Source: Desulfobaccales bacterium
GTDB lineage: Bacteria; Desulfobacterota; Desulfobaccia; Desulfobaccales; 0-14-0-80-60-11
Length of the DNA: 50,095 bases
Direction of reading: 5' to 3'
Assembly: GCA_037481655.1 (NCBI GenBank)
Contig: JBBFLF010000018.1
Location: 1-50,095, forward strand
This document shows positions 4,925-14,881 of this stretch, piece after piece. Under the pieces are notes generated by a model. The model did not search any database. It had not been told where the DNA came from and saw only the letters and a program-made list of their open reading frames with translations. The translations under genes and the position numbers were made by a program. Each line of letters begins with the position of its first letter. The stretch's first letter is position 1.

Positions 4925-6238
4925 TTAATGCACGAAGTAAATCCGGCAGGCCCGGTCCAGCAGCTCCTGGGACAGAGTGGGGGGAAGCTGATGGAAGGTG
5001 CAGTAATCCAGGATCTGCTCCATCAGGTCCCGGGGGTGACAGGCGTCCATGGAGCGCCCGGTGGCGTCATAGTGGGTGACCAGGAGATACTCCAGGGCCT
5101 CGGCGTCATAAGGCAACTGGAAATGCTGACAGTTGAGCCGGAAAATCTCCTTGAACTGCTCCCGGGTGACGTGATTCACCTTGACCTTGGAGCGGATGCG
5201 CCTTAAGAAGGCGTCGTCCACCAGGGAGCGGGGATCCAGGTTGGTGGCGAACACCAAAAACTGGTCGAAGGGGATGGCGAATTTCTGCCCGGTGTGCAGG
5301 CAGAGAAAATCCTGGCGGTTTTCCAGGGGGATGATCCACCGGTTCAGGAGCTCCTGGGGGGAGATCTGCTGGCGGCCGAAGTCGTCCACAATGAAGAGAC
5401 CGTTGTTGGCTTTGAGCTGCAACGGGGCCTCGTAGTATTTCAGGGTGGGGTTGAAGGCCAGATCCAGCATGGGCAGGGTGAGCTCGCCCCCCACGATGAC
5501 GGTGGGCCGGCGGCAGCGCACCCAGCGGCGGTCCCCCAGCTCCGGGGGATCCTGGCCGGGGGCGGGTTTATGGCTGATCTCATCATAGACCCGGATGACG
5601 TTCCCTTCCACATAGATGGCATAGGGTACCAGGATGGCGTCATCCCAGATCTGCCCCAATCTCAGGGCGATGGTGGTCTTGCCGTTGCCCGGCGGCCCAT
5701 AGAGGAACAAGGGTTTGCCGCTCACCGCCGCCGGCCCCAGCTGCTCCAGCAGGTCTGGCGCCAGGACTAGCCCCTGGAAGGCCTGCCGGAGGCGGGTGGG
5801 GGTGACGGCGCTCAGCTTGATGCTCTGCCGGGTCACCTGCTGCCAGTAGTCCGCCAGGCTCACCGGGGCCGGACCCACATAGGCATCGTACTCCAACAGC
5901 AGCGCCGCCCGGCGCTTGCCGCTGTCGGTGAGGGCATAGCGGTTGGTGAGGCTCAGGGGGTTGGCCCCCGGCTTCAGGGGATCGGGGCCCCGCACCTCCA
6001 GGTACTTTTCCTTTTTCAGGTATTCCAGCAGGAGACTCAAGACGGTGGTGGAGAGCTTCAGCCGGTCCACCAGATCAGAGAGATAAAAGGTGTCCAGATA
6101 GAAGCAATGCTTCAAGGTCAGGTTGGCCAGAAAGATTTCCGGCAGCCCCAGATCCTTGAGGGACTGGGGCAGGGGCCGGGCCAGAGGTGATGTGGTGGCC
6201 TCCGGGGAGGCCACACTCAGACCGGCAGAGGGGTTCAT
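4925..6238 (-). CDS. AAA+ ATPase with N-terminal winged-helix-like domain, divergent from the Tad operon
   Basis: The 437-residue protein has a Walker A GPPGNGKT at 181-188, Walker B LFIVDD at 281-286, sensor-1 FATNLD at about 330-335 and an arginine-rich FLRRIRSK segment near 344-351. Residues 36-115 look like a small helical/winged-helix domain. There is no membrane segment. It is transcribed away from the Flp/Tad pilus operon across a 400-nt shared upstream region, and I believe similar ATPases sit beside tad loci in related bacteria. A chaperone or remodelling role in pilus assembly or regulation is inference from position. It is distinct from the secretion ATPase CpaF encoded at 9494. 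Confidence 0.8.
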   Translation of the reverse strand: MNPSAGLSVASPEATTSPLARPLPQSLKDLGLPEIFLANLTLKHCFYLDTFYLSDLVDRLKLSTTVLSLLLEYLKKEKYLEVRGPDPLKPGANPLSLTNRYALTDSGKRRAALLLEYDAYVGPAPVSLADYWQQVTRQSIKLSAVTPTRLRQAFQGLVLAPDLLEQLGPAAVSGKPLFLYGPPGNGKTTIALRLGQIWDDAILVPYAIYVEGNVIRVYDEISHKPAPGQDPPELGDRRWVRCRRPTVIVGGELTLPMLDLAFNPTLKYYEAPLQLKANNGLFIVDDFGRQQISPQELLNRWIIPLENRQDFLCLHTGQKFAIPFDQFLVFATNLDPRSLVDDAFLRRIRSKVKVNHVTREQFKEIFRLNCQHFQLPYDAEALEYLLVTHYDATGRSMDACHPRDLMEQILDYCTFHQLPPTLSQELLDRACRIYFVH

Positions 6239-6348
6239 TTCCCTTGTGCTCCTCCGTGGCCGAGGGAATCAGGCCGTTCACCTCAGAGCATCGGCCGCCG
6301 GCCAGGAAACTTGAAATGGGAGGAATGAGTGGCAGCCGGGAGAAAATT

Positions 6349-6375
6349 TAAAGTCGCCTGCGGCAATGCCGATAA
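6349..6375 (+). promoter_or_regulatory. Sigma-28 (FliA)-type promoter of the flp/tad operon
   Basis: TAAAGTCG (6349-6356), an 11-nt gap, then GCCGATAA (6368-6375). The enterobacterial FliA consensus is TAAAGTTT-N11-GCCGATAA, so 14 of 16 specified bases match with exact spacing. The predicted start near 6383 falls just before the riboswitch. motA has a promoter of the same type and spacing (14990-15016). Confidence 0.75.
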
Positions 6376-6390
6376 AGGGAGTGACAGGAA

Positions 6391-6486
6391 AGACCGGCCA
6401 CCGAGAAAGGCAAACCGTCTGAAAGGGCGGGGCGCAAAATCACCGGCCTACAGCCCCCAAGGGCCAGGGCAGCGGGATTGCCGAAG
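6391..6486 (+). ncRNA. Cyclic-di-GMP-I (GEMM-I) riboswitch upstream of flp
   Basis: The conserved blocks occur in order: GGCAAACC (6409-6416), a GAAA tetraloop (6421-6424), GGGCGCAAA (6429-6437), CACCGGCCTA (6441-6450) and GGCAGCGGGATTGCCG (6468-6483). This matches the Vibrio Vc2 GEMM-I layout of CAAACC, GAAA, ACGCAAA, CCGGCCUA and AGCGGGGUUACC. The base aligned to Vc2 G20 appears to be G, the state associated with c-di-GMP rather than cGAMP, although I aligned it by eye. The flp start codon is about 150 nt downstream; a G/C-rich hairpin at about 6520-6550 could belong to the expression platform. Confidence 0.88.
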
Positions 6487-6638
6487 TGGACAGCTACATC
6501 CTCTTTGGTGCCCTCGGTGGACGGGGCGGGCGAGCCCGGCCGGCGCCCTGGCGGGCCAAAAGGTTCAGCGGCGGCGCGGCAGGCAGCGCCGGTTAGCGGC
6601 CCCGCACACCACTCCACCATATGAAGGAGACGCGGCAC

Positions 6639-6815
6639 ATGAAGGATCTGATGGGCAAGGTGAAACACTTCATCCGGGAAGAGGAAGGCGCCAGCGCGGT
6701 GGAATACGGCCTGCTGGTGGCCGGTATTGCGGTGGTGGTCATGGCCTCCATCTACCTCATCGGCACCAAACTGAACACCAAGTTTTCCGACGTGGCCACC
6801 CAGTTGGGTCAGTAA
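6639..6815 (+). CDS. flp: Flp-family type IVb pilin
   Basis: This 58-residue prepilin is the structural subunit of a Flp (Tad) pilus. It has a short basic leader, then EEEG followed by ASAVEYGLL: cleavage after Gly would give a mature protein with Glu5-Tyr6, the Flp signature, followed by one hydrophobic helix. An in-frame ATG exists at 6621, but AAGGAG at 6624-6629 is 9 nt from ATG 6639, so 6639 is the likely start. It is the first gene after the c-di-GMP riboswitch. No prepilin peptidase (TadV/CpaA) is in the window. Confidence 0.93.
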   Translation: MKDLMGKVKHFIREEEGASAVEYGLLVAGIAVVVMASIYLIGTKLNTKFSDVATQLGQ

Positions 6816-6937
6816 CCCGTATTGCGGCGGGGGCCGGCCCCGGCGCTCGGCCGACCCGCCCCGGGCAGGTCCGGGGGGCTGCATTAAGCCCTCCGGACCG
6901 TCTGGTCCTGAAAGACACCGGGAAAGGGAGTCAGACG

Positions 6938-7360
6938 ATGCACCTGAGGGCACGGGCCGGGCACACGGAGCGGGGCGCCACCCTGGTGGAGTTCGGGCTC
7001 CTGGCCCCTCTCCTGGTGACCCTGCTCTTCGGCCTCTTGGAGTTTGGCCTGGCCATGTACACCAAGGGCCTGTTGGCCAACGCCGCCCGGGAGGGCGCCC
7101 GCTTCGGGGTGGTGCTCAGCACTCCCCGGAAATCCCAGGCGGATATCACGGGGAAGGTGCGGGAGTATCTGGCCAAATCCGGTTTTGCCGAGGCGGCCAC
7201 GGTGCCCGTCACCTTCCCCAACTGGCCGGGGGGGACAAGCGGCGCCCCCCTGACGGTGCGGGTGGAATACTCCTATAATTTTCAAGTCCTGCCCCGGCTG
7301 GTGCAGGATCTGGTGGGGCCCATCAACCTGACGACCCAGGTCGTCATGCTCATGGAGTGA
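6938..7360 (+). CDS. TadE-like minor pseudopilin
   Basis: The 140-residue protein begins with a basic leader followed by RGATLVEFGLLAPLLVTLLFGLLEFG, the typical TadE/TadG motif in which Glu5 follows a prepilin-like cleavage site. The remainder is a small periplasmic domain rich in beta structure. The frame is open much further upstream (to 6329) through the riboswitch, but ATG 6938, placed after GGGAG, starts directly before the family motif. It overlaps the downstream cpaB region closely (6 nt to ATG 7366), consistent with one operon. Confidence 0.88.
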   Translation: MHLRARAGHTERGATLVEFGLLAPLLVTLLFGLLEFGLAMYTKGLLANAAREGARFGVVLSTPRKSQADITGKVREYLAKSGFAEAATVPVTFPNWPGGTSGAPLTVRVEYSYNFQVLPRLVQDLVGPINLTTQVVMLME

Positions 7361-7365
7361 GAACG

Positions 7366-8226
7366 ATGCGGAGATTGCCCCCTTGGTTCTGGCTCATTCT
7401 GGCCCTGGTCTTCGGCACCACGGCCACGGTGATGGCACTGGGCTGGCTCAAAGGCCAGTCGCAGCAGCAGGCCCGGCAGCAGCCGGCCATCAAGCTCAGG
7501 CCGGTGGTGGTGGCGGCCAAGGATATTGAGGCGGCCAGCGCCCTGTCGCCGGAGCAGGTGGTGATCCGCCACTGGCCCCAGGAGAGCTGCCCCCCGGGCA
7601 GCTTCATGCGTCCGGAGGAGGTGGCGGGCCGGGTGGCAGCCTCCCAGTTCAAAGCCGGAGAGCCCATCCTGGAGGTGAAGCTGGCCCCCCAGGGCGCCAT
7701 GGCCGGGCTCACCGCCCTGCTGGGTCCGGAGAAGCGGGCCATGACGGTGAAGGTGGACGAGGCCTCGGGAGTGGCGGGGTTCCTGGCCCCGGGTAACCGG
7801 GTGGATGTGGTGGCCACCATCGACAAGGGGGAGTTCAACAAGGATCCCGTCTCCAAGGTGGTGCTCCAGAACCTGAAGGTCCTGGGGACCGGCCAGAGCA
7901 TTGAGCGCCGCCCCGGGGACAAGCCCCAGGTGGTACCCACTGTCACCCTGGAGGTCACCCCGGAGGAGGGGGAGCGTCTGGCCCTGGCCGCCCGGGAGGG
8001 CTATGTCTCCCTGGCCCTGCGCAACCATGCCAACCAGGAGGTCATCCAGACCAGCGGCGTGAAGACCACTCACCTGGTGCAGGGTCCCGTATCCTCCGGC
8101 GTGACGGGGGAGGGTAACGGCAACTCGGGACGTTTGTCGGGGCCCCGCCCGGTGGAAGTCATCCGGGGTCTGGATGTCAAGGTGCAGAAGGTGCGGCCGG
8201 AGGGGTCCTCCATCGCTCCTCTCTAA
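7366..8226 (+). CDS. cpaB: Flp pilus assembly protein CpaB/RcpC
   Basis: The 286-residue protein has one N-terminal membrane segment (about 7-25) and a SAF-like domain (PVVVAAKDIEAASALSPEQVVIRHWP, about 44-69), followed by the CpaB C-terminal beta domain with GFLAPGNRVDVVATI near 140. CpaB/RcpC sits in the periplasm and is thought to support the outer-membrane secretin. GTG 7357 is an alternative start, but GGAG at 7354-7357 is correctly spaced for ATG 7366. The secretin gene cpaC/rcpA normally follows cpaB; here it is absent. Confidence 0.92.
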   Translation: MRRLPPWFWLILALVFGTTATVMALGWLKGQSQQQARQQPAIKLRPVVVAAKDIEAASALSPEQVVIRHWPQESCPPGSFMRPEEVAGRVAASQFKAGEPILEVKLAPQGAMAGLTALLGPEKRAMTVKVDEASGVAGFLAPGNRVDVVATIDKGEFNKDPVSKVVLQNLKVLGTGQSIERRPGDKPQVVPTVTLEVTPEEGERLALAAREGYVSLALRNHANQEVIQTSGVKTTHLVQGPVSSGVTGEGNGNSGRLSGPRPVEVIRGLDVKVQKVRPEGSSIAPL

Positions 8227-8314: not shown

Positions 8315-9487
8315 ATGGCCATCACATTCTGTCTGTACTACAGCAATCCGGAGACGCACGACTACCTGACCAAGGTGGTGCAGGCCTCCCGTCAAGGGAC
8401 CTTGCTCGAGGCCCTGCCGCTGGCGCAGCTCCCGGAGCGGGTCAACTCCGGCGCCAATGCCATCTTTCTGGAATACCCGGGCGAGGATCCGGACCTGGAC
8501 GCCTGGATCCGGAAGACCACCTCTGACCACCGCAACCCTCCCATCTTCCTTTACTTCCAGGAGATCACCACCGAGCAGTTGTGGAAGGCCCTGCGCCTGG
8601 GGGTGAAGGAGTGCTTCGTCTTCCCCATCCGCCCCGATGAGTTCCAGGAGGCCCTGGACCGGCTGCCGGTCCTCCCCGCGGAGCTGGGCCCGGCGGAACC
8701 CACCCGGCTCACCGCCTTTTTGGGCTGCAAAGGCGGGGTGGGCACCACCTTTGTGGCGGTCAACACCGCCTATCTCCTCTCCCAGGAGAGCCAGGGCCAG
8801 GTGCTGTTGGTGGACCTGGACCTGCGCTACGGCCAGATGATGCATTTCTTTGACGTCAAACCCCAGTACACCCTGGTGGAGGTCATCGAAAACGCCGAAA
8901 ACCTGGACCGCTCCTATCTCCAGAGCCTTTTTTACCAATACGACAAGAACCTGCAGCTCCTGCCGGCGCCCCTGCGCCTGGAGGACGCCGAGGTGGTGAC
9001 CGCGGAGCGGCTGGATCAGGTCCTGCGCTACCTCAAGAAGCTCAGGGTCTTCTCCCATATCCTGGTGGATTTGGCCCAGAACCTGGATGAGCCGGCCCTC
9101 AAGGTGCTGGAGATGGCGGAAAACATCGTCGTGGTGGCCAACCAGAGCATCCCGGCCCTCTCCAATGCCAAAAAGCTCCTGGATCTCCTGGAACTGCTGG
9201 GCCTGGAGGCGGCGGCCCTGGGGCTGTGGCTCAACGCCTGGCAGAAGCACGGCGACCTGTCGGTGGAGGACGTCTCCGCCTTCCTGGGCCGGGAGGTGAA
9301 GGGCACTATCTGCCACGCCCCCCGGGAAGTGACCCGCAGCATCAACGAGGGCCAGCCCCTGGTGCGCCAGGAACCCGGCCACGCCCTCTGCCGCGACCTC
9401 AAGCTGCTGGCCGCCCAGCTCAGCGGCCGGGAGAGCCCGGACGCCAAAGACAGCCGCTGGGGACTCCTGAAGTTGTTTCGGAGGTAA
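8315..9487 (+). CDS. cpaE: Pilus assembly ATPase CpaE/TadZ (ParA/MinD-like)
   Basis: The 390-residue protein has an N-terminal receiver-like domain (about 1-120) that lacks a clear phosphoacceptor pattern, followed by a MinD/ParA-type ATPase with the deviant Walker A GCKGGVGTT at about 137-145 and VLLVDLDLRYG near 164. TadZ marks the cell pole where the Tad secretion machine assembles. The canonical signature lysine of deviant Walker A (KGGVGKT) is present in K-G-G, but the second lysine is replaced by T, as in other TadZ proteins. It lies 6 nt before cpaF. Confidence 0.93.
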   Translation: MAITFCLYYSNPETHDYLTKVVQASRQGTLLEALPLAQLPERVNSGANAIFLEYPGEDPDLDAWIRKTTSDHRNPPIFLYFQEITTEQLWKALRLGVKECFVFPIRPDEFQEALDRLPVLPAELGPAEPTRLTAFLGCKGGVGTTFVAVNTAYLLSQESQGQVLLVDLDLRYGQMMHFFDVKPQYTLVEVIENAENLDRSYLQSLFYQYDKNLQLLPAPLRLEDAEVVTAERLDQVLRYLKKLRVFSHILVDLAQNLDEPALKVLEMAENIVVVANQSIPALSNAKKLLDLLELLGLEAAALGLWLNAWQKHGDLSVEDVSAFLGREVKGTICHAPREVTRSINEGQPLVRQEPGHALCRDLKLLAAQLSGRESPDAKDSRWGLLKLFRR

Positions 9488-9493
9488 GCTGAG

Positions 9494-10843
9494 ATGAGCA
9501 TCATCGCCCGCATCCGGGAGCGCACCCCCACCGAGCGGGGCGCCCCGGCGGCGACGGTCAGCCCGGATCAGAAAAAAGAAAACGCCTTCAATGAACTGAA
9601 GGCCAAGGTTCACTTCCGCCTCCTCAACCTCTTGGACCTGGCCCGGCTGGCGGAGGCCGAGGAAGCGGTCCTCCAGGAGGACCTGCGCCGGGGCATCGAC
9701 CTCATCCTGGTGGAAGAAAACCTGGCCCTGCCCCTGCCGGAAAAGGAACGCCTGGTCAAGGAGATCCGGGATGAACTTTTGGGCTACGGCCCCTTAGAGC
9801 CCCTCCTCCAGGACCCCAGCGTGGGGGACATCCTGGTGAACGGCTACGACATGGTCTATGTGGAGAAAAAGGGCAAATTGGTGCGTTCCTCCGTGCGCTT
9901 CACGGACAACGCCCACCTGCTGAAAATCATTGAAAAAATCGCTTCGGGGGTGGGGCGGCGCATTGATGAGTCCTGCCCCATGGTGGACGCCCGGCTGCCC
10001 GACGGCTCCCGGGTGAATGCCATCATCCCGCCCCTGGCCCTGGACGGCCCGGCCCTGTCCATCCGCAAATTCGCCCGGGACCCCATCCGGGTGCACAACC
10101 TCATCGAATTCAACACCATCACCCCGGAGATCGCCCAGGTGCTGGAGGCCATCGTCCAGGCCCGGCTCAACATCCTCATCTCCGGCGGCACCGGCACCGG
10201 CAAGACCACCTTCCTGAACGTGCTCTCCAGCTTCATCCCCAACGATGAGCGCATCATCACCATTGAGGACTCGGCGGAGCTGCAGTTGCAGCAGGAGCAC
10301 GTGGTGCGGCTGGAGACCCGTCCTCCTAACCTGGAGGGCTTAGGCGAGATCACCCAGCGGGATCTGGTGCGCAACGCCCTGCGCATGCGGCCTGAGCGCA
10401 TCATCCTGGGGGAGGTGCGTCAAGGGGAGGCCCTGGACATGCTCCAGGCCATGAACACCGGCCACGACGGCTCCCTGGCCACCATCCACGCCAACACCCC
10501 CCGGGATGCCCTCACCCGGCTGGAGACCATGGTCTCCATGGCCGGCCTCAACATCCCGGACAAGGCCATCCGCCACCAGATCGCCTCCGCCATCCACGTG
10601 GTCATCCAGCTGGCCCGCCTCAATGACGGCAGCCGCAAGATGATGAGCCTCAATGAGATCGTGGGCATGGAGGGGGACATGATCACCATGCAGGAGATCT
10701 TCTGCTTCAAGATGATGGGGCTCACGGAAGACCGCCGGGTGCGGGGCAAGTTCATCACCACCGGCATCCGGCCCAAATTCATGGACCGCCTGGAGGCCAT
10801 GGGCATTCATCTGCCCGCCTCGGTGTTCAAGGAGAACTATTAA
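9494..10843 (+). CDS. cpaF: Tad/CpaF secretion ATPase
   Basis: This 449-residue hexameric motor ATPase powers Flp pilus extension. Visible elements are the CpaF N-terminal region with [24 protein letters not shown]-type sequence (about 94-117), Walker A GGTGTGKT at 231-238, the Asp box [11 protein letters not shown], Walker B region [13 protein letters not shown] and the His box [18 protein letters not shown]. All catalytic motifs are intact. It acts at the cytoplasmic face with TadB and TadC, which follow directly. Confidence 0.96.
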
Positions 10844-10860: not shown

Positions 10861-12018
10861 ATGAGAGGGCGGCAGCCGGACATGATAAGGGGGCAGCGTG
10901 AAAGGAGGGAGAGGATCCTCACCCCTAAGGTGGCGGCCCTCCTGGGTGGCCTCCTGCTGCTTATGGCAGCCGTGGGCTGGGCGGCCGACGGCGCAGTTCC
11001 CGATCCGGAGGCCTCCGGCGGCATGCTGGCCCGCCTGCATCAGATTTTCCAGGGTCTGCCCCACCTCCTCGTCCTTACCACCTTTCTCTTTTTCCTCTGC
11101 CTGGTGGAGGGGGTGTTCCTCTATTTTTCCGATTCCCAGCGCCGGCACCGGCGCCTCTTGCAGAAGCGTCTCAAGTACCTGGATCGCCTGGAGAAACGCT
11201 TCACCCAGGAGTCCCTCCTCAAGGTGGACAGCCTCAAGACCCAGTTCTGGCTGCGCCGCCTCATCAAAAAAGTGCGCTCCCTCGAACACTTGCAGCGTCT
11301 GCTGCAGCAGGCCGACGTCACCTGGCCCCTGGGCGTGGTGCTGGGCCTCTTCGCCCTCTGCGGGGCCCTCGGCCTCTCCCTGGGGTATTTTTACCGGGGC
11401 GGCCTGGGGGGCCTCCTGGGGCTGGCTCTGGGGCTGTTTTTGCCGTATAAGCTCCTCGCCTTTAAGCGGGCTCACCGCCTGAAGAAATTTGAAAAGCAGC
11501 TGCCGGAGGCCCTGGACCTCATGGCCCGGGGTCTCAAGGCCGGCCATGCTTTTGCCTCGGGCCTCCAGATGGTGGGGGAGGAGATGGAAAACCCCATCGG
11601 TATGGAGTTCTTCAAGACCTTCAAGGAATACAACCATGGCATGGACATGAACACCGCCCTGCTCAATTTGTGTGAGCGGGTCAATCTCAAGGAGCTCAAG
11701 CTCTTCACCACCGCGGTGATGATTCAAAGGGAGACGGGCGGCAACCTCACGGAAATCCTGGAGAAGATCGCCGGCCTCATCCGGGAGCGCTTCAAGCTCC
11801 GCAACCAGATCAAGGCCCTCACCGCTGAAGGGCGGCTGTCGGGGTGGATCCTCATCGGACTGCCGCCCATGATCTTCACCGTCATGCTCAAGATCAACCC
11901 GGATTACACCCTGATGTTGGTACACCACCCCACCGGGCGTTTTATGGCCATGACCGCCCTGTTCTTCCAGGTCGTGGGCATGTTTGTCATCCGCCGGATT
12001 GTCAATATCAAGATCTGA
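10861..12018 (+). CDS. tadB: Tad inner-membrane platform protein TadB
   Basis: The 385-residue protein carries one type II secretion F domain in its second half, including FEKQLPEALDLMARGLKAGHAFASGLQMVGEEM around 210-242. Membrane segments are at about 67-89, two adjacent ones at 155-200, and one at the C-terminus. Residues 23-42 form an additional signal-like hydrophobic stretch ahead of the usual TadB start, giving a somewhat long N-terminus; ATG 10861 has GGAG upstream, and ATG 10882 is possible. TadB and TadC form the membrane platform on which CpaF acts. Confidence 0.92.
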   Translation: MRGRQPDMIRGQRERRERILTPKVAALLGGLLLLMAAVGWAADGAVPDPEASGGMLARLHQIFQGLPHLLVLTTFLFFLCLVEGVFLYFSDSQRRHRRLLQKRLKYLDRLEKRFTQESLLKVDSLKTQFWLRRLIKKVRSLEHLQRLLQQADVTWPLGVVLGLFALCGALGLSLGYFYRGGLGGLLGLALGLFLPYKLLAFKRAHRLKKFEKQLPEALDLMARGLKAGHAFASGLQMVGEEMENPIGMEFFKTFKEYNHGMDMNTALLNLCERVNLKELKLFTTAVMIQRETGGNLTEILEKIAGLIRERFKLRNQIKALTAEGRLSGWILIGLPPMIFTVMLKINPDYTLMLVHHPTGRFMAMTALFFQVVGMFVIRRIVNIKI

Positions 12019-12027
12019 GGACCCCCA

Positions 12028-12933
12028 ATGTTCGTCGCCATCCTTTTCGGCCTCTCCATTGCCGTGGTGATCATCTCCCTGGGCCGGTTCCTCCAGTCCC
12101 GGGGCTCCCGGGTGCGCCAGCGGCTGCAGGTGGAGGAGGTAAAAAGGGACAAGGTCAAGGAAGAGCGCCCCACCGAATTCCTCCCCAAGGAGCTGGTGGA
12201 CAAGGCGGAGGAGAAGTTGGGCCTCAAGCGGGGGAGCGCCCAGGTCAAGGAAGTGAAAAAGACCCTGCAGCGGGCGGGGATCCACGGCGAGAAGGCCCTG
12301 TCCATTTTTTTGGGCCTGAAGCTGGGGTTGTCCGTGGCCCTGCCGGTCATGGTCCTTCCCTTTCTGCACCGGGCCGGGGTGATTAAGGGACTGCTCCTGC
12401 CCCTCTTTTTCCTGTTGGCGGCGGCCGGCTATTTTCTGCCCAACCTCATCCTCAACCGTATGGTGGACGCCCGGCAGAAAAAGATCCGGGACAGCCTGCC
12501 CGACGCCCTGGACCTCCTGGTGGTCTGCGTGGAGGCCGGTCAAGCTCTCAACGCCGCCCTGAAACGGGTGGCCGACGATTTGAAGATCTCCAGCCCGCCC
12601 CTGTCCCAGGAGCTCACCCTGGTGAACCTGGAGATCGCCGCCGGCCTGGAACGGGAGCAGGCCCTGCGCAACCTGGCGGAGCGCACCGGGGTGGAGGAAG
12701 TGGCCTCCCTGTGTTCCATGCTCATCCAAAGCGACCGCTTCGGCACCAGCATGGCCCAGGCCCTGAAGGTGCAGTCCGACACCCTGCGTACCACCCGCCG
12801 CCAGAAGCTGGAGGAGCTGGCCGCCAAGACCCCGGTGAAGCTGGTCTTCCCTTTGCTCCTGTTCATCTTTCCCGCCCTCATGGTGGTGATCATCGGCCCC
12901 GCCGCCATCCGCATCATGGAGAACCTGAAGTAG
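12028..12933 (+). CDS. tadC: Tad inner-membrane platform protein TadC
   Basis: The 301-residue protein has an N-terminal membrane helix (1-20), a charged linker, two membrane segments near 90-145 and a T2SSF domain with the family's RDSLPDALDLLVVCVEAGQALNAAL segment near 155-180, then FGTSMAQALKVQSDTLRTTRRQKLEELAAKTPVK before the last helix. It starts 9 nt after tadB. It is the last pilus gene here: there is no tadD, tadF, tadG or secretin gene following. Confidence 0.92.
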   Translation: MFVAILFGLSIAVVIISLGRFLQSRGSRVRQRLQVEEVKRDKVKEERPTEFLPKELVDKAEEKLGLKRGSAQVKEVKKTLQRAGIHGEKALSIFLGLKLGLSVALPVMVLPFLHRAGVIKGLLLPLFFLLAAAGYFLPNLILNRMVDARQKKIRDSLPDALDLLVVCVEAGQALNAALKRVADDLKISSPPLSQELTLVNLEIAAGLEREQALRNLAERTGVEEVASLCSMLIQSDRFGTSMAQALKVQSDTLRTTRRQKLEELAAKTPVKLVFPLLLFIFPALMVVIIGPAAIRIMENLK

Positions 12934-13293: not shown

Positions 13294-14058
13294 CTACCTG
13301 GGGCCGGCCTGCGGGGTGGCAACCAGGGGCTTGATGATGATGTCCACCCGGCGGTTGAGGCGGCGGCCCTTTTCGTCCCGGTTGTCGGCGATGGGGGCAT
13401 ATTCCCCGTAACCGGCGGCGGCAAAGCGGGCCGGAGGAAGCCCGTGCTGCTCGATGAAATACCGCACCAGGGCCGTGGCCCGGTGGGTGGAGAGCTCCCA
13501 GTTGGAGGGGAATTGGAGGGTGTGGATGGGGCGGTTGTCGGTGTGGCCTTCCACCGCCACGGGGTTGGGGATCTTCTTCAGGATGCCTGCCAGTTTATCC
13601 AGGAGGGGGCGGCTCTCCGGCCGGAGAGTGGCCTCGCCGGAATCAAAAAAGAGGAACTCCGGCAGATGGATCACCAGTCCCCGGCCGGTGATGAGAAGGC
13701 GTACCTCGTCCAGGTCCTGCCGCCGGAAGCCTTCCTGGACCTCCCGGGCCACCTCCTGGAGCTGGGCCCGGGAGCGCTCCTGCAGGACGGCGCCGGCCAG
13801 GTCGCCGCTGAGGCCGGCCGCGGGCACCTCGCCCACACCGTTCTCCACCGGAAAGCCCCCCAGAAAGACCGGGGCGTGCAGGGCCCGCTGGATGGAGAGC
13901 TGCGCCTGAGAGAGCTTTTCGCTGTCCAGGCGGGTGATGCTGTACATGGTGACGAAAAAGGCCAGGAGCAGAGTGATGAAATCGGCGTAGGAGACCAGCC
14001 AGCGGTCCCGGGAGGGCGGGGGCTCAGCCTCGGGAGAGGGTGGTTTTGGTCCCGGCAT
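13294..14058 (-). CDS. motB: Flagellar motor stator protein MotB
   Basis: The 254-residue protein has the MotB plug/TM segment WLVSYADFITLLLAFFVTMYS (about 20-40), including the proton- or sodium-binding Asp, and a C-terminal OmpA-like peptidoglycan-binding domain with VEGHTDNRPI, NWELSTHRA and a GYGEYAPIADNRDEKGRRLNRRVDI ending. With MotA it forms the ion-driven stator. Its ATG (14058) lies 35 nt inside the 3' end of motA, an overlap longer than usual; no later ATG lies before the membrane segment, so I keep it. Confidence 0.93.
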   Translation of the reverse strand: MPGPKPPSPEAEPPPSRDRWLVSYADFITLLLAFFVTMYSITRLDSEKLSQAQLSIQRALHAPVFLGGFPVENGVGEVPAAGLSGDLAGAVLQERSRAQLQEVAREVQEGFRRQDLDEVRLLITGRGLVIHLPEFLFFDSGEATLRPESRPLLDKLAGILKKIPNPVAVEGHTDNRPIHTLQFPSNWELSTHRATALVRYFIEQHGLPPARFAAAGYGEYAPIADNRDEKGRRLNRRVDIIIKPLVATPQAGPR

Positions 14059-14881
14059 TTTTGGCCACGCTCCGCTTGGACTTGGGGGTGAGGCGGAACA
14101 CTTTGGTGGAGATCAGGTCCGGCAGGGAGCGGCGGACCTCCTCCGGCAGGAAGCTCTGCAGGCGTTCGGCGATGAGCCGGGGGTGCTCCCCCTGGCCCAG
14201 GGCCGCCAGGCCCTCCAGGAGCATCTCCCGGCGGCGGCGCTCCCGGGCCTCCTGCAGGCGCAGTTTGTGGGCCAGGGGCAGGAACAGCAGGTTGGCCCCG
14301 GCCACGCCGTAGATGGTGGCCACAAAGGCCACCGCCACGCCGGTCCCCAGTTTGGCGGGCTCGGTGAGATGCTGCATCACCTGGATGAGCCCCAGCACCG
14401 CGCCCAGGATGCCCAAGGTGGGGGCATAGCCGCCCGCGGCCTCGTACACCCGGGCGGGAGTCAGCGCCGCCTCGTGCGCCTGGGCCAGCTCCGCCTGGAG
14501 GATCTCCCGCACCTCCCCGGCGGAAAAGCCGCCCACCAGGAGCTCCACCCCCCGCCGCAGGAAGGGATCCGGCTCCTGGGCCAGGCTTTTTTCCAGGGCC
14601 AGCAGGCCGTCCCGCCTGGCCCGGTAGGCCATCTCCACCAGCCGCAGGAGCTGGGCCTGGCTGTCGTCCCGGGGTTCCCGGAAGACCCGGGGCAGGGCCC
14701 TGAGGGCGGCCAGGAGTGCCCCCGGCGGGAAACTGAGACTCACCGCCGCCGCGGTCCCCCCGAGCACAATGACCGCCGCGGTGGCCTGGAAGATCAGGCC
14801 GAGAGAGCCGCCCTCCAGGAGATGGCCCCCCAAGATCGCCGCCAGCCCCAGGAGCAGACCCAGGAAAGTGGCCTTATCCAT
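14024..14881 (-). CDS. motA: Flagellar motor stator protein MotA
   Basis: The 285-residue protein has four membrane segments and the MotA signature GGYAPTLGILGAVLGLIQVM near 150-170, with a large cytoplasmic loop (about 60-145) and a basic C-terminal tail. MotA5-MotB2 complexes convert ion flow into flagellar torque. A sigma-28-type promoter lies about 110 nt upstream at 14990-15016. Because the pilus operon upstream of 6639 carries the same kind of promoter, motility and pilus genes here may share regulation. Confidence 0.93.
   Translation of the reverse strand: MDKATFLGLLLGLAAILGGHLLEGGSLGLIFQATAAVIVLGGTAAAVSLSFPPGALLAALRALPRVFREPRDDSQAQLLRLVEMAYRARRDGLLALEKSLAQEPDPFLRRGVELLVGGFSAGEVREILQAELAQAHEAALTPARVYEAAGGYAPTLGILGAVLGLIQVMQHLTEPAKLGTGVAVAFVATIYGVAGANLLFLPLAHKLRLQEARERRRREMLLEGLAALGQGEHPRLIAERLQSFLPEEVRRSLPDLISTKVFRLTPKSKRSVAKNAGTKTTLSRG

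Follow-up and report, generated by a model that had tools for sequence, protein, structure and literature searches.

A probable sigma-28 (FliA) promoter in series with a c-di-GMP-I riboswitch ahead of the Tad pilus operon of Desulfobaccaceae, and its retention in relatives without flagella

The window, a stretch of 50,095 nucleotides that forms contig 18 of a Desulfobaccales bacterium genome (2,873,318 bases, 50 contigs), carries a Tad/Flp pilus operon in which Pfam profiles place Flp, TadE, CpaB/RcpC, TadA and TadB/TadC in order on the plus strand between 6639 and 12933 (Table 1). The leader of this operon contains a c-di-GMP-I (GEMM-I) riboswitch aptamer, the only RF01051 match in the window genome, which begins 23 nt 3' of the -10 box of a sigma-28-type promoter element. 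A convergent MotA/MotB-like stator pair (13294-14881, minus strand) adjoins the operon.

Table 1. Predicted features of the Tad operon and its leader (window positions)
Feature	Position	Strand	Remarks
-35 element TAAAGT, sigma-28-type promoter	6349..6354	+	6/6 to consensus
-10 element GCCGATAA, sigma-28-type promoter	6368..6375	+	8/8 to consensus
Predicted transcription start	6380..6385	+	From the usual FliA -10 to +1 distance; ~14-19 nt 5' of aptamer
c-di-GMP-I (GEMM-I) riboswitch aptamer, GGCAAAC type	6399..6485	+	RF01051, 82.4 bits, gathering score 35, model 1-87
CTCGGTGG, possible alternative pairing partner of P1	6513..6520	+	Exact complement of CCACCGAG, 5' side of P1, 6398-6405
flp, Flp/Fap pilin, 58 aa	6639..6815	+	PF04964, 53.5 bits
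tadE-like pseudopilin	6938..7360	+	PF07811, 57.5 bits
cpaB/rcpC pilus assembly protein	7357..8226	+	PF16976, 108.9 bits
tadZ/cpaE-like MinD-type ATPase	8315..9487	+	PF13614, 39.6 bits; name inferred from position
tadA/cpaF motor ATPase	9494..10843	+	PF00437, 226 bits
tadB platform protein	10861..12018	+	PF00482, 67.4 bits
tadC platform protein	12028..12933	+	PF00482, 72.5 bits

A preliminary description of this DNA had attributed transcription of the pilus operon to the flagellar sigma factor, on the basis of an exactly spaced FliA consensus match at 14 of 16 positions just upstream of the riboswitch. Re-scoring of the sequence reproduced this match, formed by TAAAGTCG (6349-6356) and GCCGATAA (6368-6375) around 11 nucleotides and compared with TAAAGTTT-N11-GCCGATAA, and the RF01051 aptamer indeed follows directly. 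The core TAAAGT-N13-GCCGATAA is matched at 14/14 positions. Two sites in the window come within three mismatches of TAAAGTTT-N11-GCCGATAA, against 0.04 expected from shuffles. When the whole 2.87-Mb genome was scanned for the core, 6349-6375 was the sole match without mismatch (0.003 perfect matches expected per genome under a composition model), and the second-best, with a single mismatch (C19:14978-15004, minus strand, 13/14), precedes a gene for a flagellin (C19:14444-14854, minus strand). Core matches with up to three mismatches are no more frequent than those of a reversed-pattern control (122 vs 153 genome-wide), so that only the top matches are informative. This last count would suit a chance match without function, but such a match is extremely improbable at a site that stands directly before an aptamer and is kept at the same place throughout the family, and on these genome statistics and this positional conservation it was rejected. 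A simple scan of positions 5900-7000 for a sigma-70 promoter returned none.

The genome encodes FliA (C2:67707-68390), found by profile search (TIGR02479, 275 bits vs a cutoff of 189.6), together with FlgM (59 bits), FlhA (884 bits) and three flagellin-domain matches. Since it also holds five further, weaker sigma-factor matches, the motif might be read by a different sigma factor, or be bound by a transcription factor and resemble a FliA promoter; we consider this very unlikely, as a single sigma factor passes the FliA cutoff, the motif is shared with the promoters of flagellins in the same genomes and with the mapped Bdellovibrio FliA-type consensus, and both boxes are conserved at near-fixed spacing. 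A third, weak Flp-like gene lies outside the window (G000:C3:176602-176706, minus strand), and TTAAGT-N14-GCCGATGA, 70 nt upstream of it, makes it a candidate FliA target.

Conservation was followed in 22 Desulfobaccaceae genomes from nine genera. All 22 have a FliA-type site of at least 11/14 upstream of a Flp gene, and 20 of them reach at least 12/14 (11/14 in G016 and G017), a score attained by 1% of 450-nt windows in a shuffle control. The aptamer is located between this promoter and the Flp gene in 18 of the 22 genomes. Each of the 19 aptamer-headed Flp leaders has the promoter, its boxes lying 18-23 nt before the aptamer with a TTAAAG/TTAAGC-like -35 element and (G/A)CCGATA as -10 element; in an alignment of these leaders the CCGATA columns are invariant and the TTAA of the -35 element is nearly so, the spacer having diverged to the point of holding little information. 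Four genomes (the flagellated G005, and G011, G019 and G020, which lack flagella) possess the promoter with no aptamer detected between it and flp, and a search of these four leaders for a hidden riboswitch (Rfam, relaxed threshold) gave nothing convincing; the combination of promoter and aptamer is therefore not universal in the family. Moreover, a second Flp type (FFKDESGAS...) of the same genomes is without FliA-type promoter, and not all Tad pili are therefore FliA-driven.

Among 20 Flp loci from outside the family, the site was found at two (13-14/14), both from one sister family within the order; another locus of that sister family does not exceed 10/14, and the 17 loci outside the order have no site (0/17, best 10/14). 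One sister-family genome (G364) shows, one after the other, the promoter, the aptamer, tadE and a gene with a Tad domain. We regard the promoter-aptamer-Tad wiring as ancestral in Desulfobaccaceae, with a promoter-aptamer-tadE form in one sister family, as part of the overall explanation graded below. The same promoter type precedes flagellin and flgM genes: TAAAGT-N13-GCCGATAA occurs at 13-14/14 at 13 of 30 family flagellin loci, and 13 of 19 FlgM loci have an upstream FliA-type site of at least 12/14. Family flagellins of a second type have TAAAGT-N14-(T/C)TCGAA, with a variant -10 box, about 75 nt upstream (L119, L125, L133, L143, L044, L131 and others).

On this sequence evidence, the element at 6349-6375 very probably serves as a promoter for sigma-28 (FliA), and FliA itself would be the protein that binds there. 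Sigma-28 transcription of the Tad operon, as the preliminary description proposed, is strongly supported by comparison, because fliA is present, the same promoter type stands before flagellins and before Tad operons family-wide, and the distance from promoter to aptamer is fixed wherever the aptamer is present.

In Bdellovibrio, a Tad operon has already been proven to be under FliA: in an E. coli delta-fliA background, FliA switches on the TAD operon promoters of both B. exovorus and B. bacteriovorus (PMC5430801). Both there and, by prediction, in Desulfobaccaceae the Tad/Flp operon is under FliA along with flagellins, and extra flp genes elsewhere in the genome are not FliA-driven. The two systems differ in that the Bdellovibrio TAD paper does not mention a riboswitch, whereas most of the Desulfobaccaceae Tad leaders with the promoter carry a predicted one, and in that Bdellovibrio is flagellated, with an essential FliA (PMC5430801), whereas one Desulfobaccaceae clade retains the FliA-Tad link without flagella. 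The mapped attack-phase FliA-type promoters of Bdellovibrio read TTAAG-N16-CCGATA (PMC3627812), to be compared with TTAAA-N16-CCGATA at the window site. A c-di-GMP riboswitch is also found in an attack-phase transcript of this host with FliA-consensus promoters, the merRNA; this is, however, a free-standing abundant RNA, proposed to store c-di-GMP and not marked with a FliA promoter (PMC3627812), while the Desulfobaccaceae aptamer heads a pilus mRNA. Similarly, Cd1, a GEMM-I c-di-GMP aptamer of Clostridioides difficile, lies in the leader of an operon for a surface appendage, but it precedes flagellar genes and switches their transcription OFF (PMC9262584), in contrast to an aptamer combined with a FliA-type promoter and Tad genes. 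Geobacter GEMM-Ib aptamers, members of GEMM-I that precede genes for surface structures, those for pilus assembly among them, respond to cGAMP, and a FliA promoter is not reported in the accessible part of the source (PMC6456294).

Taken together, we hold it highly probable that a FliA promoter transcribes the flp-tad operon, that the transcript starts with a c-di-GMP-I riboswitch so that two inputs act in series, that this wiring is ancestral, and that FliA and FlgM were kept after loss of the flagellum. Free FliA, at a level set by its anti-sigma factor FlgM, would decide whether RNA is initiated at the operon, and c-di-GMP, acting through the aptamer at the extreme 5' end, would decide whether pilus proteins are made from that RNA; pilus production would therefore depend on both. 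The FliA step draws its support from the strong comparative evidence and the experimental precedent in Bdellovibrio, the c-di-GMP step from the full-length aptamer match and its placement at the 5' end, from which control of Tad expression by the aptamer is inferred. Two well-studied controls of the choice between swimming and sticking would in this way be joined in series on one short leader. Two features appear new here, a FliA promoter followed in series by a c-di-GMP aptamer and a circuit that persisted once the flagellum was gone; we found no precedent in the literature for such a series on a Tad operon or for a FliA-FlgM-Tad circuit outliving the flagellum, although our literature coverage is incomplete and we claim no priority.

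The association between promoter and aptamer extends beyond the Flp leaders. We examined 72 c-di-GMP-I matches in the 22 family genomes, scoring as FliA-type any promoter of at least 11/14 within 80 nt. Canonical GGCAAAC aptamers have a FliA-type promoter in 32/35 cases and TTGAC in 0/35, whereas GCCAAAC/GCTAAAC variants have a FliA-type promoter in 0/37 and TTGAC in 28/37 (Fisher p = 2e-17, of descriptive value only as relatedness is ignored). In this family the kind of promoter, sigma-28-like or sigma-70-like, sets two riboswitch subtypes apart. Some TadE-like genes, too, stand behind GGCAAAC aptamers that have the FliA-type promoter. About ten variant aptamers occur in G002 alone. A link of the genes behind the variant aptamers to PEP-CTERM proteins was dropped, a simple motif search giving one doubtful match in 37.

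The direction in which the riboswitch would act was approached by fold modelling. CTCGGTG, complementary to the 5' strand of P1, recurs in 13 of 18 family leaders, and the unconstrained fold of the window leader uses this pairing, so P1 and the CTCGGTG pairing may alternate. Intrinsic terminators lie 3' of the aptamer in genera g4, g7 and g9 and form with P1 enforced, the terminator probability of G013 rising from 0.34 to 1.0; most modelled leaders form the terminator with or without P1 enforced. The window leader has no convincing terminator, only a weak hairpin (-2.5 kcal/mol). As modelled, the terminators are compatible with the P1-paired, ligand-bound fold and lean, if anything, towards OFF. 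In an OFF switch, c-di-GMP binding would terminate the transcript and pili would be made in FliA-active cells low in c-di-GMP, in a phase of motility or search comparable to the attack phase of Bdellovibrio. Such a switch is possible, though we place it below an even chance: the coexistence of terminators with P1 in several genera, the shift seen in G013 and the making of the Bdellovibrio TAD pilus in attack phase under FliA (PMC5430801) argue for it, but the indifference of most leaders to P1, the weakness of the window hairpin and the location of the conserved P1-competing stretch 3' of the terminator argue against it.

The preliminary description had instead supposed an ON switch, with pili primed by FliA in swimming cells and released when c-di-GMP rises upon contact with a surface. 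A FliA promoter combined with a c-di-GMP aptamer in a flagellated genome would fit this model, but we judge it unlikely, given that relatives without flagella keep the same promoter, that the terminators of g4, g7 and g9 form with P1 enforced and that the window lineage has none that convinces. Of that earlier reading, sigma-28 transcription of the Tad operon is strongly supported, whereas the swimming-primed, c-di-GMP-released model finds no support in its stated form and is partly contradicted: gating on a c-di-GMP rise presumes the ON polarity that the terminators of relatives do not favour, and priming in swimming cells can at most be part of the explanation, since FliA, FlgM and the FliA-type Tad promoter persist in four genera that have no flagella.

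These four genera comprise eight genomes (G001-G004, G010, G011, G019, G020; completeness 93-99% for six of them) in which profile searches found neither flagellin nor FlhA. All eight encode a FliA above the family cutoff, and their Tad promoters score 12-14/14. FliA is under purifying selection within the clade (dN/dS 0.08-0.19 between members) and has invariant stretches in regions 2 and 4. Gene order in flagellated members is flhB-flhA-flhF-flhG-fliA (names other than fliA and flhA being assigned from sequence look and position), and where flagella are absent, fliA and a MinD-like (flhG-like) gene are left, surrounded by unrelated genes. In the FliA tree a single branch with full support separates the eight genomes from the rest, so that one loss of the flagellum is the simplest reading and they cannot be counted as eight independent tests. 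A role of FliA in flagella only was rejected on its presence in genomes devoid of flagellin and FlhA.

FliA and FlgM form the textbook checkpoint of flagellum assembly, in which FlgM exits the cell via the finished hook. FlgM is matched in 7/8 genomes without flagella (43-54 bits), G003 having a weaker match in a larger frame. The six full-length copies of this clade have lost or altered the MKI... N-terminus common to flagellated members; of the G004 copy only a part was recovered. The sigma-28-binding half of FlgM is retained in the clade (FlgM loci L364-L382). Upstream of flgM, a FliA-type site of 10-13/14 is present in 6/7 genomes without flagella, that of G004 being covered for 137 nt only. 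Promoter identity, the fixed tie to the pilus operon and the retention of fliA without flagella are, at the level of sequence comparison, well supported; FliA and FlgM would have been retained together with the Tad promoter when one clade lost its flagellum. We tentatively suggest, as a possibility approaching but short of even, that FliA-FlgM survived this loss as a switch dedicated to the pilus, and that in some of these genomes c-di-GMP provides a second lock, on the Tad mRNA. Since the lost FlgM N-terminus is plausibly the flagellar export region, a dedicated pilus switch would require that FliA be released by a non-flagellar route. That the FliA-FlgM pair outlives the flagellum in four genera, still tied to the Tad pilus, raises a testable question on how FlgM is controlled without a flagellum.

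Chlamydia likewise keeps a sigma-28 though it has no flagella, but there the factor acts in the developmental cycle and not on pili, unlike the FliA-Tad link of Desulfobaccaceae. The presence of a sigma-28 in Chlamydia trachomatis is recorded in the accessible part of PMC10597470. FliA-like sites were also observed elsewhere in two of the Desulfobaccaceae genomes without flagella, at L302 (G020:C50) and at G019:C60:16204-16229; 127 nt downstream of the L302 site, the next frame resembles, by sequence look only, a main sigma factor.
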